Source of the DNA: Flavobacteriaceae bacterium
GTDB taxonomy: Bacteria; Bacteroidota; Bacteroidia; Flavobacteriales; Flavobacteriaceae
Direction of reading: 5' to 3'
Assembly (NCBI GenBank): GCA_021647885.1
Contig: JAKITV010000003.1
Coordinates: 1-64,000, forward strand
Length of the DNA: 64,000 nt
A program made the position numbers and the translations under genes. The notes below the pieces were generated by a model that saw nothing but the letters and a program-made list of their open reading frames with translations, searched no databases and had not been told where the DNA came from. Positions 15,871 through 25,177 of the stretch are shown here, one piece after another; position 1 is the first letter of the stretch; each line of letters begins with the position of its first letter.

Positions 15871-16290
15871 ATGAAAACAAGAAACCTTGATTTAAAACGT
15901 ATTCGTCCAGATTTCATGACCACTACCATTAATAATGGAATGAGCATCGAAGAGCGCTTTCAAAATTTAGTTTTGAGACCAATAATTAAGTTGCAAAATG
16001 ATTTATTTATTGAAGTATTTAAAAACTATACTATTAAACATAAAAATGTATTTTATGGTCTATCGCTAGAAAAGCGGATAGATTATATAGGAAATGCCAT
16101 TCATAAAGATATGAAGTTTAGAAATGGTATAAAGGGAATGGTTATTGGATTATTTACAATTGAAGAATACAAACTCTATATTCAAAATTCATCAGCATTA
16201 AACAAGCGCATGATGAATATTGTAAAAGAATGCATTATTGATAATGTTCAAGTTTTTTATTCTGAGTCTAAAACATTAGCTGCGGTTTAA
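15871..16290 (+). CDS. Conserved flavobacterial protein of unknown function
   Basis: 139 residues, soluble, no signal peptide. Key stretches are the start MKTRNLDLKRIRPDF, LRPIIKLQNDLFIEVFKNY, YIGNAIHKDMKFRNGIKGMV and SSALNKRMMN. Relatives in this family are, from memory, sometimes labelled glyoxalase. I see no metal-binding vicinal-oxygen-chelate motif to support that, so I leave the function open. The gene follows a strong terminator and so has its own promoter. Its last 4 bp overlap the end of the convergent DUF2461 gene. Confidence 0.65.
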   Translation: MKTRNLDLKRIRPDFMTTTINNGMSIEERFQNLVLRPIIKLQNDLFIEVFKNYTIKHKNVFYGLSLEKRIDYIGNAIHKDMKFRNGIKGMVIGLFTIEEYKLYIQNSSALNKRMMNIVKECIIDNVQVFYSESKTLAAV

Positions 16291-16964
16291 AACAAAGACT
16301 CTCCATTTAAATTTGTAGTAAGCACATCGCTCATATAATCAAAATATGGGCGAATTGCTTTAAAAGAATTATCGACTTCTTTTATAAATCCTTCTGAAAT
16401 CACTTCTTTATCAGTAAATTTTTTGGTAAAAATGAATTGTTTTTTCCGTATTAAATCAATGGCTTTGTGTTCTTTATCAAAATCTCTTGGAGCAGATTTT
16501 AGTTCGTCTCCTAAAAGATTTCCCCAAACAGATTTAAACCTTTTATTAGATAGAATATTTCTAATTTCTTGGTCATCCATTTCGAATTCTTTTCTAATTC
16601 TAAATAGATCGTCTTTATTAGGTTCCCAAAATCCAGTTGCTAAAAAGGATTGATTATTTGGAGTAAGGTGTAAATAATATCCTCCTCTTAATTTTGGCTT
16701 TGCTCTGTGAAAAGAACAACCAAAATGTGTTTTATAAGGTGTCTTGTCTTTTGAAAATCTTACATCGCGATAAATACGAAACATTTTGAGTTTGTCTACA
16801 TCATCGTGCGATTTAATGTTTTCAAAAATGGTGCTATAAACTCCCTTTACTTCAGCTTCAATCACTTTGAATTCTTTTTTATGGTCATTAAACCAATCGC
16901 GATTATTGTTCTTTTCAAGCTTTTTTAAAAATTCAAAAGCAGATTTTGGTATTATAACATTCAT
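16287..16964 (-). CDS. DUF2461 (TIGR02453) family protein
   Basis: 225 residues. The ALxFLxxLxxNNxRDWFxxHK-like start (FEFLKKLEKNNNRDWFNDHK), FRIYRDVRFSKDKTPYKTHF and YLHLTPNNQSFLATGFWEP are diagnostic of DUF2461, a conserved cytosolic family of unknown biochemical role. Length is normal. A palindromic repeat lies immediately upstream (16981-17004). It converges on the preceding gene with a 4-bp overlap. Confidence 0.88.
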   Translation of the reverse strand: MNVIIPKSAFEFLKKLEKNNNRDWFNDHKKEFKVIEAEVKGVYSTIFENIKSHDDVDKLKMFRIYRDVRFSKDKTPYKTHFGCSFHRAKPKLRGGYYLHLTPNNQSFLATGFWEPNKDDLFRIRKEFEMDDQEIRNILSNKRFKSVWGNLLGDELKSAPRDFDKEHKAIDLIRKKQFIFTKKFTDKEVISEGFIKEVDNSFKAIRPYFDYMSDVLTTNLNGESLF

Positions 16965-16980
16965 AGCTATTTATTTTATG

Positions 16981-17004
16981 GATTCCTGCCTACGCAGGAA
17001 TGAC
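16981..17004. repeat. Dispersed palindrome, family 1 (ATTCCTGC/GCAGGAAT)
   Basis: An 8-bp perfect stem ATTCCTGC/GCAGGAAT with a 4-nt loop, followed by GAC. Sister copies are at 20001-20022, 20692-20715 and 25157-25177, with a diverged form at 28259-28283. Confidence 0.8.
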
Positions 17005-17069
17005 AAGATTATTTATTGCTTTGATGAAAGCATTAAGGAAATATTCTGAAAATTACAAAAACAGCTTTA

Positions 17070-17855
17070 CTATTCAAATTCTACATTGTTAAGAATTAAA
17101 CCTGAAGCTGGTGCGATATAATCCATAACTTCATTACTTTGTGGCTTTAAGCTGTCTTCAATGTATTTTAAAGTTATTTCTCCTTTTCCAAGTTTTATGA
17201 GTGCTCCCATCATTAATCGTATTTGATTTCGCCCAAAACCTTTTCCTTTTACACATAATAAATATGTCTGCTTCGGAAAGAAATTAGCAGTAAGTGTTTT
17301 GTTTTCTACAAGCTCACAAGCCATTATTTCTCTATTATAAATACCTTTTTCGGTAGTTCTAAAGCAGTAGGATTTAAAATTGTGTTTGCCTTGAAACAGT
17401 TTTGCACCTTGCTTCATTATTGAAATATCCAACTCATCAAGAATAGTAGTTAGAATTGGTGCACAAAACGGATGATTCTTTTGTCCTTGTGCAAATAGAT
17501 ACAAGTATTCTTTAACTTTTGAATGCTGTATGATATTGAACTTATCATCAACTTGTTTAATGGATAAAGCTCGTATATCTTGAGGTAGATTAAGGTTGAA
17601 AATCGCAAAAAATTCTTCTAAATTCTCAAGAGGTTTATCTTCTAAAAAGAGTTCAAAAGCAGCATCTTGTGCAGAAACCATAGCATCTGTTCTTCCTGCA
17701 CCAAGTGTTTTAAAAGGCTGTTCTTCTAAAATATACTTCAATGTTCTATCAATCATTAATTGCACCGTTTTCAATTTTGGCTGTTTTTGCCAACCATGAA
17801 AACGATAACCTAAATATTGAATCCTGATAAGGTAATAGTAGCGTTTGTTAAACAT
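17070..17855 (-). CDS. truA: TruA-like tRNA pseudouridine synthase
   Basis: 261 residues with TruA architecture: RIQYLGYRFHGWQKQP near the N-terminus, GAGRTDAMVSAQD (residues 53-64) with the catalytic Asp at 57, and KGFGRNQIRLMMGALIKLGKGE near residue 210. TruA converts U38-40 in tRNA anticodon arms. The usual signature is GRTDxGVHA; here Gly and His are replaced (AMVSA). That suggests a divergent paralog rather than the main housekeeping enzyme, which would lie elsewhere. It follows the his operon by 38 bp and may be read through from it. Confidence 0.75.
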   Translation of the reverse strand: MFNKRYYYLIRIQYLGYRFHGWQKQPKLKTVQLMIDRTLKYILEEQPFKTLGAGRTDAMVSAQDAAFELFLEDKPLENLEEFFAIFNLNLPQDIRALSIKQVDDKFNIIQHSKVKEYLYLFAQGQKNHPFCAPILTTILDELDISIMKQGAKLFQGKHNFKSYCFRTTEKGIYNREIMACELVENKTLTANFFPKQTYLLCVKGKGFGRNQIRLMMGALIKLGKGEITLKYIEDSLKPQSNEVMDYIAPASGLILNNVEFE

Positions 17856-17893: not shown

Positions 17894-18484
17894 TTAATGT
17901 CTTGATTTTAGAACTTCAACAATATCATTGAGTTTATAACCTTTTGCTTGCAGCAAAATTAAATAGTGAAATAATAAATCGGCACTTTCATTTAAAAACA
18001 AGTTGTTGTTATTATCTTTTGCTTCAATTACCATTTCAATGGCCTCCTCTCCTACTTTTTGAGCTATTTTGTTGATGCCTTTTTTAAACAACGATGCTAC
18101 GTATGATGTGTCTTCTGTGGCATTTTCCTTTCTATCTTCTATAACATTCTCTAATCGAGATAAAAACCCAAATTCCTGCATATTAGCTTCTTTCCAGCAC
18201 GTATCTGTTCCAGTATGACACGTTGGGCCTTCTGGATTTACTTTAATTAGTAAAGTATCGTTATCACAGTCATTTTTAATAGAGACAAGGTTTAAGAAAT
18301 TACCACTCTCTTCTCCTTTTGTCCATAAACGTTGTTTACTTCTACTAAAAAATGTTACCTGTTTTGTAGCTATGGTTTTTCTCAAAGCATCTGCATTCAT
18401 ATAACCCAGCATCAATACTGTTTTTGTATTAGCATCTTGAATAATTGCTGGGATTAATCCGTCACTATTGTATTTTATCTCCAT
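17894..18484 (-). CDS. hisIE: Phosphoribosyl-AMP cyclohydrolase / phosphoribosyl-ATP pyrophosphatase
   Basis: 196 residues, the normal fused HisIE form, catalysing steps 2 and 3 of histidine synthesis. The HisI half (1-105) has MLGYMNADALRKT, SRSKQRLWTKGEESGN and the metal-binding DCDNDTLL plus GPTCHTGTDTC. The HisE half (about 108-196) has the EEAIEMVIEAKD helix, where the Mg-binding acids sit, and SADLLFHYLILL. Its start codon shares one base with the hisF stop. Last gene of the his operon. Confidence 0.96.
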   Translation of the reverse strand: MEIKYNSDGLIPAIIQDANTKTVLMLGYMNADALRKTIATKQVTFFSRSKQRLWTKGEESGNFLNLVSIKNDCDNDTLLIKVNPEGPTCHTGTDTCWKEANMQEFGFLSRLENVIEDRKENATEDTSYVASLFKKGINKIAQKVGEEAIEMVIEAKDNNNNLFLNESADLLFHYLILLQAKGYKLNDIVEVLKSRH

Positions 18485-19239
18485 TATAATCTTACTTCTA
18501 TATTATTATTTCTTAATTCTTTTTTTAATTCTGAAATTGGAATTTCCCCAAAGTGAAACACACTAGCAGCTAAAGCTGCATCTGCTTTTCCTAATGCAAA
18601 GGTTTCAACAAAGTGCTGGATAGTTCCTGCTCCTCCAGATGCTATTATTGGTATGTTTAGCGATGCTGATAATTTAGCAAGTGCATCATTTGCAAAACCA
18701 TTTTTGGTGCCATCATTGTTCATAGACGTGAATAAAATTTCTCCTGCGCCTCGCTGTTCTACTTCTTTTGCCCAATCAAACAGCTTCAGTTTGGTTGGTA
18801 TTGTTCCTCCTGCCATATGTACAATCCATTTACCTTCAATCTGTTTTGCATCAATTGCCACAACAATACACTGATTTCCAAATTTATTTGATAATTCATT
18901 TATTAATTCTGGTCGTTGTATTGCCGAAGAATTGATAGAAATTTTATCTGCACCGCATTTTAAGAGCGCATCTACATCAGCAATAGACGAAATTCCGCCA
19001 CCAACAGTAAATGGGATATTAACTTGTTCGGCAACATGAAGCACCATATTCAATGTTGTGCTTCTATTTTCTAAAGTTGCTGAAATATCTAGAAACACTA
19101 ACTCATCTGCTCCAGCTAAAGCGTATTGTTTAGCCAATTCAACAGGGTTGCCTGCATCAATTAAATTAACAAAGTTAACGCCTTTTACAGTGCGTCCATT
19201 TTTAATATCCAAGCATGGTATAATCCGTTTTGCTAGCAT
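18484..19239 (-). CDS. hisF: Imidazole glycerol phosphate synthase cyclase subunit
   Basis: 251 residues, a (beta-alpha)8 barrel that pairs with HisH to make imidazole glycerol phosphate and AICAR from PRFAR. Catalytic Asp residues are in the PCLDIKNGR start (Asp11) and VVAIDAKQ (Asp about 130). TVGGGISS and [11 protein letters not shown] are the phosphate loops. It lies 2 bp after hisA and overlaps hisIE by one base. Confidence 0.97.
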
Positions 19240-19241
19240 AA

Positions 19242-19997
19242 TTACTGGTTTAGTATATAGTTTTCTAGTTGTTTTAAACTAATTCTATGTTCATAAATCG
19301 CTTTACCAATAATAACGCCTTCGCAACCCAATTCTGCCAGTTTTGGCAAGTCTTCAAAAGTTGAAATACCTCCAGAGGCTATCAATTTTAATTTATTAGT
19401 TCTCGACTGCGCTCGAACTGACATACAGCATTTTTCTAATATTCTTTTGTATAAATTAAACGAAGGCCCTTCAAGCATTCCATCTTTTGAAATATCTGTA
19501 CAGATTACATACTCAATACCTTTAGCCTTATAATCTTGAATAAAAGGAATTACTTTTAGATTACTTTGCTCTTGCCAACCACTAACAGCAATTGTTTCAT
19601 TATAACAATCTGCACCTAGAATAATTTTTTTTGAACCATACTTAGAAATCCAAGATTCAAAAACATCAGGATCTTTTACTGCAATGCTACCACCTGTTAC
19701 CTGATTTGCTCCGGAGTTAAATGCAATATGCAAGTCTTCATTTGTTTTTAGACCACCACCAAAATCAATCTTTAAACTGGTTTTGGATGCTATTTGTTCT
19801 AATACATTGTAATTTATTATATGACTTGCTTTTGCGCCATCCAAATCAACAACATGCAAATATTGCATACCAGATGCTTCAAAAGCCTTGGCTACTTCTA
19901 AAGGGTTCTCATTATATACTTTTTTAGTACTAAAATCACCTTTAGTGAGTCGTACACATTTACCGTCTATAATATCTATTGCTGGTATAATTCTCAT
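19242..19997 (-). CDS. hisA: ProFAR isomerase (HisA) carrying an in-frame palindromic insertion
   Basis: 251 residues, about ten longer than most HisA. The barrel isomerises ProFAR to PRFAR. Catalytic Asp8 is in [10 protein letters not shown] and the second is Asp130 in LGADCYN. Phosphate loops DFGGGLKT and ASGGIST are intact. The insertion is [12 protein letters not shown] at residues 190-201, just before the LKLIASGG strand. It is encoded by a copy of a palindromic repeat that elsewhere lies between genes. The reading frame stays open through it. The loop position (between helix 6 and strand 7) suggests the enzyme can tolerate it; activity is inferred, not shown. Confidence 0.95.
19395..19430 (-). 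repeat. Palindromic element inside hisA (family 2)
   Basis: AGTTC (19398-19402) pairs with GAACT (19415-19419), with TCGACTGCGCTC between them, followed by GACA. This is the same family as the intergenic copy at 20052-20077 (TCGACTGCGCTC core, then TGACA). Read on the minus strand it encodes about ten in-frame residues of His[11 protein letters not shown], without a stop. Confidence 0.85.
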
Positions 19998-20000
19998 AAT

Positions 20001-20022
20001 ATTTCCTGCGCAGGCAGGAATC
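20001..20022. repeat. Dispersed palindrome, family 1
   Basis: TTCCTGC (20003-20009) pairs with GCAGGAA (20014-20020) around a 4-nt GCAG loop. It lies in the hisH-hisA gap, 4 bp upstream of the hisA start codon. Confidence 0.75.
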
Positions 20023-20051: not shown

Positions 20052-20077
20052 ACACTTCGACTGCGCTCAGTGTGACA
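20052..20077. repeat. Dispersed palindrome, family 2 (TCGACTGCGCTC core)
   Basis: ACACT and AGTGT flank the core TCGACTGCGCTC, followed by GACA. It directly abuts the hisH stop codon in the hisH-hisA gap. This is the intergenic counterpart of the copy inside hisA. Confidence 0.75.
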
Positions 20078-20659
20078 CTAAAGCGTTAAAAAGTTCTTCA
20101 ATATTTTCTCACCTGCAATGCTACTTTTCTCAGGGTGGAACTGTACGCCATAGAAATTTTCATGTTGTAAAGCTGACGCATAATTGGTTTCGTAATTTGT
20201 TGTAGCAATAGTTTCTTTACATTGTTCAGCATAATAACTATGCACTAAATACATATATTCATTGTTTTTTATTCCTGAAAATAAATCTGATTTCAAATCC
20301 CTAATGGTATTCCAGCCCATTTGTGGCACTTTAACTTTATTTGAAAAGCGCTTAATATTTACATTAAAAACACCTAATCCGGAAGTATCCCCTTCTTCTG
20401 TATGCTTACAGAGTAATTGCATGCCAAGACAGATACCTAAAACTGGCTGTTTTAACTTCGGAATAAGTTTATCCAACTGTGACTCTTTAAGCATCATCAT
20501 AGCATTACTGGCTTCACCTACTCCTGGAAAAATAACTTTATCGGCATTTAAAATTTCCTCAGGATTATTGGTAAGCATCGCATCAATACCTAAGCGCTTA
20601 AAAGCAAATTGAATGCTTTTTATATTTCCTGCACCATAATCTATTATTACTAGTTTCAA
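20078..20659 (-). CDS. hisH: Imidazole glycerol phosphate synthase glutaminase subunit
   Basis: 193 residues from a TTG start at 20659 (MKLVIIDYGAGNIKS). It supplies ammonia from glutamine to HisF. The Cys nucleophile is in VLGICLGMQLL and the His-Glu pair is in GVQFHPEKS. An ATG at 20722 is in frame, but the added 21 residues (MLCHSCESRNPF...) are simply translation of the palindromic repeat at 20692-20715. I therefore reject that longer form. The TTG choice rests on family alignment from memory. Confidence 0.93.
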   Translation of the reverse strand: MKLVIIDYGAGNIKSIQFAFKRLGIDAMLTNNPEEILNADKVIFPGVGEASNAMMMLKESQLDKLIPKLKQPVLGICLGMQLLCKHTEEGDTSGLGVFNVNIKRFSNKVKVPQMGWNTIRDLKSDLFSGIKNNEYMYLVHSYYAEQCKETIATTNYETNYASALQHENFYGVQFHPEKSSIAGEKILKNFLTL

Positions 20660-20691
20660 AATAATTTTTTTATTAATTAAACTCTTAAATG

Positions 20692-20715
20692 GATTCCTGC
20701 TTTCGCAGGAATGAC
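20692..20715. repeat. Dispersed palindrome, family 1
   Basis: GATTCCTGC, TTTC loop, GCAGGAATGAC: same stem as at 16981-17004. It lies in the hisB-hisH gap and creates a misleading in-frame N-terminal extension of hisH. Confidence 0.8.
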
Positions 20716-20722
20716 AAAGCAT

Positions 20723-22923: not shown

Positions 22924-22945
22924 ACCTCTCGACTGCTCTCGAGGT
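22924..22945. repeat. Dispersed palindrome, family 2 variant
   Basis: ACCTC and GAGGT flank a TCGACTGCTCTC core, a one-base variant of the TCGACTGCGCTC core of family 2. It lies in the hisD-hisC gap. Confidence 0.65.
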
Positions 22946-22956
22946 GATGGTTATTT

Positions 22957-25156: not shown

Positions 25157-25177
25157 GATTCCTGCCTGCGCAGGAAT
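25157..25177. repeat. Dispersed palindrome, family 1
   Basis: ATTCCTGC, CTGC loop, GCAGGAAT-type stem between the his attenuator and the hisG start. It touches the T-run side of the attenuator hairpin. Confidence 0.75.

Follow-up and report, generated by a model that had tools for sequence, protein, structure and literature searches.

The window, a stretch of 64,000 nucleotides of Flavobacteriaceae DNA that was analysed as a whole, carries a hisA gene with what looks like an in-frame copy of a repeat, and this raises the question of what the extra codons are and how an enzyme of the his operon came to bear them. An earlier note on this DNA had described the insertion and likened it to the palindromic elements of Rickettsia. 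The features needed to follow the argument are these:

18484 to 19239, reverse strand: hisF, the next gene of the his operon.
19242 to 19997, reverse strand: hisA, 251 aa, insert-bearing (assigned from the ORF list, TIGR00007 and its nearest solved relatives, which are HisA).
19395 to 19424, reverse strand: codons for the ten extra HisA residues (192-201).
19398 to 19423, reverse strand: REP unit in hisA, family A, a TGTC tag followed by AGTTC...GAACT, with its GTC in hisA reading phase 2.
20053 to 20077, reverse strand: second repeat unit (CTGAGC variant) in the 80-bp hisH-hisA spacer, identical in locus L002.
20078 to 20722, reverse strand: hisH ORF with an inferred start, its listed ATG adjoining another palindrome.
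20693 to 20715, reverse strand: family E palindrome, TGTC-tagged with an 8-bp stem and 4-nt loop, between hisB and hisH.
22929 to 22949, reverse strand: degenerate repeat copy (3 mismatches) between hisC and hisD.

The hisA product scores above the HisA equivalog cut-off of TIGR00007, and its residues 192-201 are the translation of one TGTC-tagged REP-like unit which, read from the tag, is TGTCAGTTCGAGCGCAGTCGAGAACT. The core TCGACTGCGCTC was found exactly both in hisA (19403-19414) and in the hisH-hisA spacer (20057-20068), as would be expected from the earlier claim that the insert is a copy of a repeat otherwise lying between genes. Among 80 relatives, HisA proteins without a REP-like loop were mostly 234-247 aa long (exceptions being L054 at 250 aa, and L043 at 261 and L073 at 259 aa with a long SGVED loop), and against the short-loop relatives, typically 241-243 aa, the window's protein is indeed about ten residues longer. 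Alignment with these relatives, which the note had proposed as a check, showed the extra residues to be missing from short-loop HisA, and the idea that the insert is a conserved HisA feature was rejected on that ground. The peptide SVRAQSR was present in 4 of 205 distinct HisA (window, L030, L180 and L194), with the nucleotide repeat present in all four; the same residues in distant HisA lacking the palindrome, which the note had named as the observation that would count against it, were not encountered among the 205 genes. As short-loop relatives lack the residues, and as copies of this repeat occur both in intergenic DNA and, in frame, within further genes of the same genome, where the note had suggested looking for further carriers, the description as an in-frame insertion was borne out.

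When the whole genome of the window (2.59 Mb in 67 contigs, 87% complete) was searched with TCGACTGCGCTCNNNNTGACA, 41 matches were obtained at up to 3 mismatches, 15 of them exact, compared to 1 for the reversed control. With this count and with the exact core in both hisA and the spacer, the in-frame repeat insert in hisA is real and beyond chance. The family-A pattern GTCANTTCGAGCNNAGTCGAGAA was present in 37 of 46 genomes that we chose with and without hisA inserts, the reversed control giving a single match over all 46 (up to 3 mismatches), and the one-contig genome G131 held 77 repeat copies against 0 for the control. Two further families with the same tag and other stems, B and C, were found in 13/42 and 20/42 genomes respectively; family B is scarce, its sole match in the genome of L002 (G299) being, by position, hisA itself (up to 3 mismatches). 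A T preceded GTC in 30/30 aligned copies, the GTC itself being part of the search pattern. Among the matches listed, 19/30 in the window's genome (30 of 41) and 24/30 in G131 (30 of 77) lay outside genes, a class that includes L091, whose ORF has 105 aa, and L083, which lies seven codons inside its ORF, and copies often stood in opposite-facing (head-to-head) pairs approximately 50 bp apart. The repeat in the window's genome and G131 accordingly has the size and number of a REP (20-40 nt, many dispersed copies), and it shares the mostly extragenic placement and frequent inverted pairing of that class. Nesting of units was also seen: L070 has a second palindrome inside a unit that L062 and L075 carry without nesting, and L116 (approximately 2906-2960) has a family-D-like unit inside another unit, TGTCAGGTTGAGCG...CAGTCGAAACCT surrounding a TGTCACACTGAG..GTCGAAGTG unit.

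Two stem positions covaried across 30 G131 copies (27 distinct), with 28 two-sided changed cells compared to 9.5 in shuffles and 0/500 shuffles as high, and slid-stem controls scored lower than the true stem. Two of the five covariation measures fell within the shuffles (2 pairs changed on both sides compared to 2.5, and 7 pair types compared to 6.5), the outermost family-A stem pair was broken in 10/27 copies, the second was G-C in 16/27, and only two pairs vary informatively. The G131 copies thereby show the conserved stem with compensatory changes that is a mark of REPs. The single hisA unit is a weak bulged palindrome (5+2 bp, 6-nt inner loop) which folded no better than shuffles (z = 0.16); folding was strong for the REP pair inside G131 hisA (L194; z -6.7) and weak for the composite unit of L006 (z -1.9). 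The palindromic nature of the insert rests on covariation across copies and not on the unit's own stability, so that the earlier word 'palindrome' holds for the repeat across its copies, while the single unit in hisA has no fold advantage.

The TGTC tag places the repeat beside a known group, as the 'CGTC-tagged' REP superfamily includes RPE-4 and RPE-6 of R. conorii, has a tag that is often TGTC, and has G. forsetii named among its positive genomes (PMC3733652, 2013). The earlier comparison with Rickettsia was in this respect apt. According to the passages available from that source, our repeat resembles the superfamily in its terminal tag (CGTC or TGTC), multiple copies, mostly intergenic placement, head-to-head pairs, in-gene in-frame copies and apparent lack of a flanking tyrosine transposase, but differs in its stem, which there is 8-9 bp, starting with A-T pairs, with a 4-5 nt loop, whereas the family-A unit of hisA has a bulged 5+2 bp stem and a 6-nt loop. 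Family E has the superfamily's stem and loop. Its layout is (T)GTC-ATTCCTGC-nnnn-GCAGGAAT, with copies at 16982-17004, 20693-20715, 25158-25177 and 20003-20022, of which the 20693-20715 copy fits the published CGTC layout with its 8-bp stem, 4-nt loop and CCA tail; another copy stands in frame in a TrpF-like gene of G131 (L284). The ATG listed for hisH would cause this palindrome to be translated (20655-20722, MLCHSCESRNPF...), and the true start of hisH probably lies downstream, near KLVIIDYG.

The hisA unit of the window is one of many found at the same place. At the loop between helix alpha6 and strand beta7, a REP unit was recognised in 17/205 distinct hisA at up to 2 mismatches and in 21/205 at up to 5 (families A, B, C and D), reversed patterns reaching 5 mismatches in 1/205 loops; outside the loop, 11 of 1,063,636 scored positions came within 5 mismatches, 2 of which are a REP pair just upstream of the start codon of L134. 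Collectively the loop units are read in all three phases and belong to four sequence families: phase 2 gives MSVRAQSRT (window, L030, L180, L194), phase 0 gives VISTEQSDEKS or VTSSAVEK, and phase 1 gives CHSERSEES or CHPELVEGP. Unit starts (up to 5 mismatches) scatter over approximately 21 nt of the loop, and all 21/21 units are TGTC-first on the coding strand. The 205 genes are the 216 with a parsed loop minus 11 duplicates, and the set of 80 HisA relatives is not neutral, as one of its six search peptides, RILEKCCM, touches the edge of the insert. In a broad draw, hisA was found in 248 of 299 family-level genomes, 230 of them placed (150 + 80) and 18 unplaced. Loops were read in 141/230 placed hisA (60 loci from searches, 80 fetched for a long or split match, and the window), the other 89 having been skipped as a match of 690-699 nt is too short to hold a unit, with the partial matches of G079 and G150 as the two exceptions. 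At least 10 of the 248 hisA-bearing genomes have a loop unit (window, L150, L172, L180, L181, L184, L194, L200, L201, L204); the loops of L138, L141, L189, L210 and L256, read by eye, had no recognisable unit. Within the hisA loci themselves (80 plus the window and L001), 50 REP matches were found at up to 2 mismatches; of these, 13 fall within ORFs of at least 150 aa, no closer than 15 aa to either end, and every one of the 13 belongs to the HisA loop, spread over 11 genes; the other 37 are outside such ORFs. The alpha6-beta7 loop is a recurrent REP site, which points to a spot in the protein that has repeatedly tolerated such DNA and extends the earlier reading of a single insertion to a loop struck repeatedly across the family by different REP families in different phases.

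Other loops of this region were less clear. An ECSNSSSGQS-like loop is present in 72/205 HisA and an SGVED loop in 15/205, and both groups failed the REP mismatch test despite similar length or motif; because of this failure, a reading of these loops as decayed REPs stays conjecture. The fifteen SGVED-like HisA (L043, L073 and 13 of L177-L197) have long loops whose motif resembles the phase-0 REP reading, possibly an old insert. A different HisA loop, near alignment column 135, has a 4-residue insertion of its own in L016, L029, L036 and L058.

HisA is also one of several genes struck. In the window's genome, 11 of 30 repeat copies (30 of the 41 matches being listed) stand in frame inside long ORFs, a twelfth, L091 in its 105-aa ORF, having been judged spurious. 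NCBIfam matched 10/11 as PabB, HisA, a GyrA/ParC-like protein, RNase R, a PGDH-like dehydrogenase, an FAD monooxygenase, MetG, PurL, TilS and MtaB, with PabB, GyrA/ParC, PGDH and the monooxygenase scoring below their own NCBIfam cut-offs; the remaining 226-aa ORF, L082, had no NCBIfam or Pfam match. These ten NCBIfam-matched genes are unrelated and presumably stay functional, a behaviour like that of RPEs. In G131, 6/30 copies (30 of 77 listed) are in genes, namely MetG, HisA, topoisomerase III, PurL, RibD and TrpF, of which topoisomerase III and TrpF fall below NCBIfam and above Pfam cut-offs. That topoisomerase (L270), taken by eye for TopA, was reassigned by NCBIfam, and at least two REP-like peptides, VTSSAVEKS and VPSSGVEKS, occur in its C-terminal part. 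MetG and PurL are struck at the same places in the window's genome and in G131, which belongs to another genus; the MetG insert of the window's genome has the context LKNIL|NVTLSGVET, and the PurL insert, KLSGRA..., lies ahead of the same domain in both. For MtaB, an insert was present in 7/29 rows, including the genome of L002 (L289) and in some rows without the tag, and the linker was empty in 22/29, including two genomes of the same genus. Three insert-bearing proteins of the window's genome were set against PDB homologues, which are distant; the alignments had gaps, or left a stretch unaligned, at the insert or close to it.

The position within HisA offers a reason why such an insert may persist. 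The predicted model (33 sequences, mean pLDDT 89.4) keeps the HisA fold, its best Foldseek match being S. enterica HisA (5a5w, TM 0.88), and places the insert between helix 180-191 and strand 204-208 (beta7), with residues 195-199 the only run of three or more below pLDDT 50; the predicted structure is consistent with the surface loop before strand 7 that the note had proposed. In TIM barrels the catalytic loops follow the strands, and loops that precede a strand are on the other side of the barrel. The alpha6-beta7 loop is consequently opposite the catalytic face, and the insert would be tolerated for this reason. Purifying selection acts on hisA outside the loop (dN/dS of 0.069 over 708 nt between the window and L002). 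The insert itself would be close to neutral for HisA. Reading frame may contribute, as the TGTC-first strand has no stop in any of the three frames in 29/30 G131 units (28% of shuffles); in the window's genome, whose commoner unit type gives no such protection, this is true of 8/30. Over both genomes, 16/17 in-gene copies are TGTC-first (L102 being the exception), giving P ~0.001 against the 0.569 expected if copies are independent, with HisA, MetG and PurL counted once per genome.

How far the loop units are inherited was examined through the closest relatives. L002 is the window's sister on a HisA tree built without the loop (96% identical over 234 columns), with a family-B loop read in phase 0 where the window has family A in phase 2. 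Identity of the two DNAs is 86-96% in 300-bp blocks of the his operon, lowest in the loop-containing block. The 80-bp hisH-hisA spacer and the REP in it are the same in both, and the hisA loop is different throughout. Beyond the his genes, at approximately 16240-17750 of the window, identity falls from 86-96% to 67-76%, the two MtaB proteins share 85% identity, and from these sequence comparisons an exchange of the his operon between species is possible. The window's genus, with hisA found in 3/5 genomes, showed three loop states: family A in the window, CTNSSASQS in G292, and CHTENVEAS in G328, which we would read as a decayed TGTC unit. On an 81-row tree of HisA (without the loop), HisF, HisH and HisI, 9 changes account for the 16 strict REP rows, or 12 when family and phase are treated as distinct states, compared to a minimum of 12 and mean of 15 over 200 sets of shuffled labels. 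For this purpose 29/205 loops were assigned to REP classes by eye, 6 with a question mark; 'strict' drops these 6 and keeps L006 and L070, which miss the 5-mismatch limit as another palindrome interrupts the unit. Since 9 changes are fewer than in any shuffled set, REP loops are partly clustered: the REP loop state is partly inherited and partly repeated.

We consider it highly probable that one TGTC-tagged REP unit inserted in the hisA alpha6-beta7 loop and that this loop has been struck repeatedly by different REP families in different phases. The partial clustering would also follow if one old HisA-loop REP had been inherited widely and rewritten by gene conversion, partial deletion of REP pairs and decay, giving turnover at one site. 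Such a history would suit the sisters, 96% identical outside the loop and different in REP family within it with the REP approximately 630 bp upstream identical, as well as the four family-B loops that share CNVISTE[QR]SDEK, the doublet layout and similar spacers shared by L005, L036 and L184, and the case of MtaB, where one insert type appears shared and decaying in 7/29 rows. It sits less well with the differing unit starts and phases, with the many near relatives whose short loops hold no remnant, and with the placement of L030 and L180 away from the window on the hisA tree (FastTree, many weak forks), and we regard it as unlikely, though with a sizeable chance of being right. That the hot spot is instead a DNA target, a mobilising enzyme preferring a short hisA sequence over a tolerant loop, appears improbable: many inserts do follow or begin with a TGT/TGC Cys codon and in-gene orientation is strongly biased, yet the unit start varies by approximately 21 nt, phases differ, MetG, PurL, MtaB and others are struck too, and the Cys codon may itself stem from an older insert.

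The repeats at several his-operon junctions of the window, and the identity in L002 of the 80-bp spacer against 86-96% in the surrounding 300-bp blocks, would agree with a hisA copy retained for a role in the operon at the RNA or DNA level, such as mRNA stability, attenuation, or binding of gyrase or polymerase. The hisA copy is, however, precisely the one not conserved between the window and L002, single units fold no better than shuffles and most relatives have no recognisable repeat in hisA, which leaves this role very improbable. An artefact of assembly or binning, or a chance likeness of a variable loop to the repeat, is scarcely credible: the window's genome is in 67 contigs and 87% complete, but the same was seen in the named isolate L005 (Pontimicrobium aquaticum) and in the one-contig G131, and the reversed-pattern control gave 1/205. 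Assembly artefact was rejected because other genomes show such inserts as well.

Under the preferred reading, repeated insertion into a tolerant loop, one REP unit (26 nt with a few flanking bases) would insert between helix alpha6 and strand beta7 of hisA, and a few extra disordered residues on the non-catalytic barrel face would be tolerated while the frame is kept. The repeat would insert many times in the genome, selection removing most in-gene insertions. The survivors would be those in permissive loops and linkers, with a preference for the orientation that puts TGTC first on the coding strand; in the TCGAGC-type unit this strand is almost always stop-free in all three phases. Because survivors would be limited to such places, the same HisA loop would have taken up units of different REP families, in different phases, time after time within the family, and these might later decay into ordinary-looking sequence or be replaced.

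Insertion was presumably by a mobile process, either a Y1/HuH transposase acting in trans or template switching. The window's genome (87% complete) has five Y1_Tnp matches, four over the cut-off, and no family A-C unit was found near any of them at up to 3 mismatches (loci of 3.2-3.4 kb), the loci giving only partial matches with 3 mismatches to a shortened A-C pattern. One, L114, has NHVH and YIHNNP, which are listed for the Bacteroidetes-rich RAYT subclass 2.6 (PMC6006769); the inverted repeats of L114 and L115 included none that was recognised as a repeat-like hairpin linked to either gene. L112 (G000:C43:23681-24001) is a Y1_Tnp match with one in-frame TGA that adjoins one TGTC..GTCGAA (family-D-like) unit. 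In terms of what PMC6006769 gives on RAYT/TnpAREP systems, the likeness lies in REP-like repeats in a genome with Y1_Tnp genes, one with subclass 2.6 motifs; unlike in those systems, no family A-C repeat was found near the Y1_Tnp genes and the tag is TGTC rather than GT[AG]G. CGTC repeats are likewise described as generally lacking associated transposase genes (PMC3733652).

Genes with in-frame REPs have been described in R. conorii, O. terrae, Xanthomonas and others, replication and repair genes being stressed, and recB of two Xanthomonas species is struck at about the same site (PMC3733652). As far as those passages go, the phenomenon is the same, but here one loop is struck across many genera by several repeat families, and most targets are enzymes of metabolism and translation; the passages describe neither in-gene copies in Flavobacteriaceae nor repeated strikes on one HisA loop. 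Rickettsia RPEs, as portrayed in the available part of PMC10969869, are likewise inserted in frame in metabolic genes that are unrelated to each other, at sites considered compatible with folding, but are elements of approximately 150 bp with a conserved peptide, whereas the units here are approximately 26 nt, encode 8-10 residues and are read in three phases. A search of open-licence literature, as far as its texts were available, returned no report of in-frame REPs in Flavobacteriaceae or of one loop struck this often, which is weak evidence. More surprising than the insertion itself is the repeated use of one loop across a family, together with strikes at the same places in other enzymes.

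These data carry a phenomenon best known from Rickettsia to other bacteria. They also provide a repeated natural experiment, in which the same enzyme loop can be compared in many species with and without inserts of differing type and phase, allowing one to ask whether selfish in-gene repeats are merely tolerated or become useful protein parts, and they map permissive insertion sites in housekeeping enzymes. As a speculation that we would sooner doubt than hold, the Flavobacteriaceae may share 'landing loops' (HisA alpha6-beta7, MetG, the PurL linker, MtaB, perhaps TrpF) in which REPs are repeatedly turned into protein, many ordinary loops, such as the ECSNSSSGQS-like and SGVED ones, being fossils of inserts. 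If so, this family would have in its palindromic repeats a lasting supply of new protein segments.
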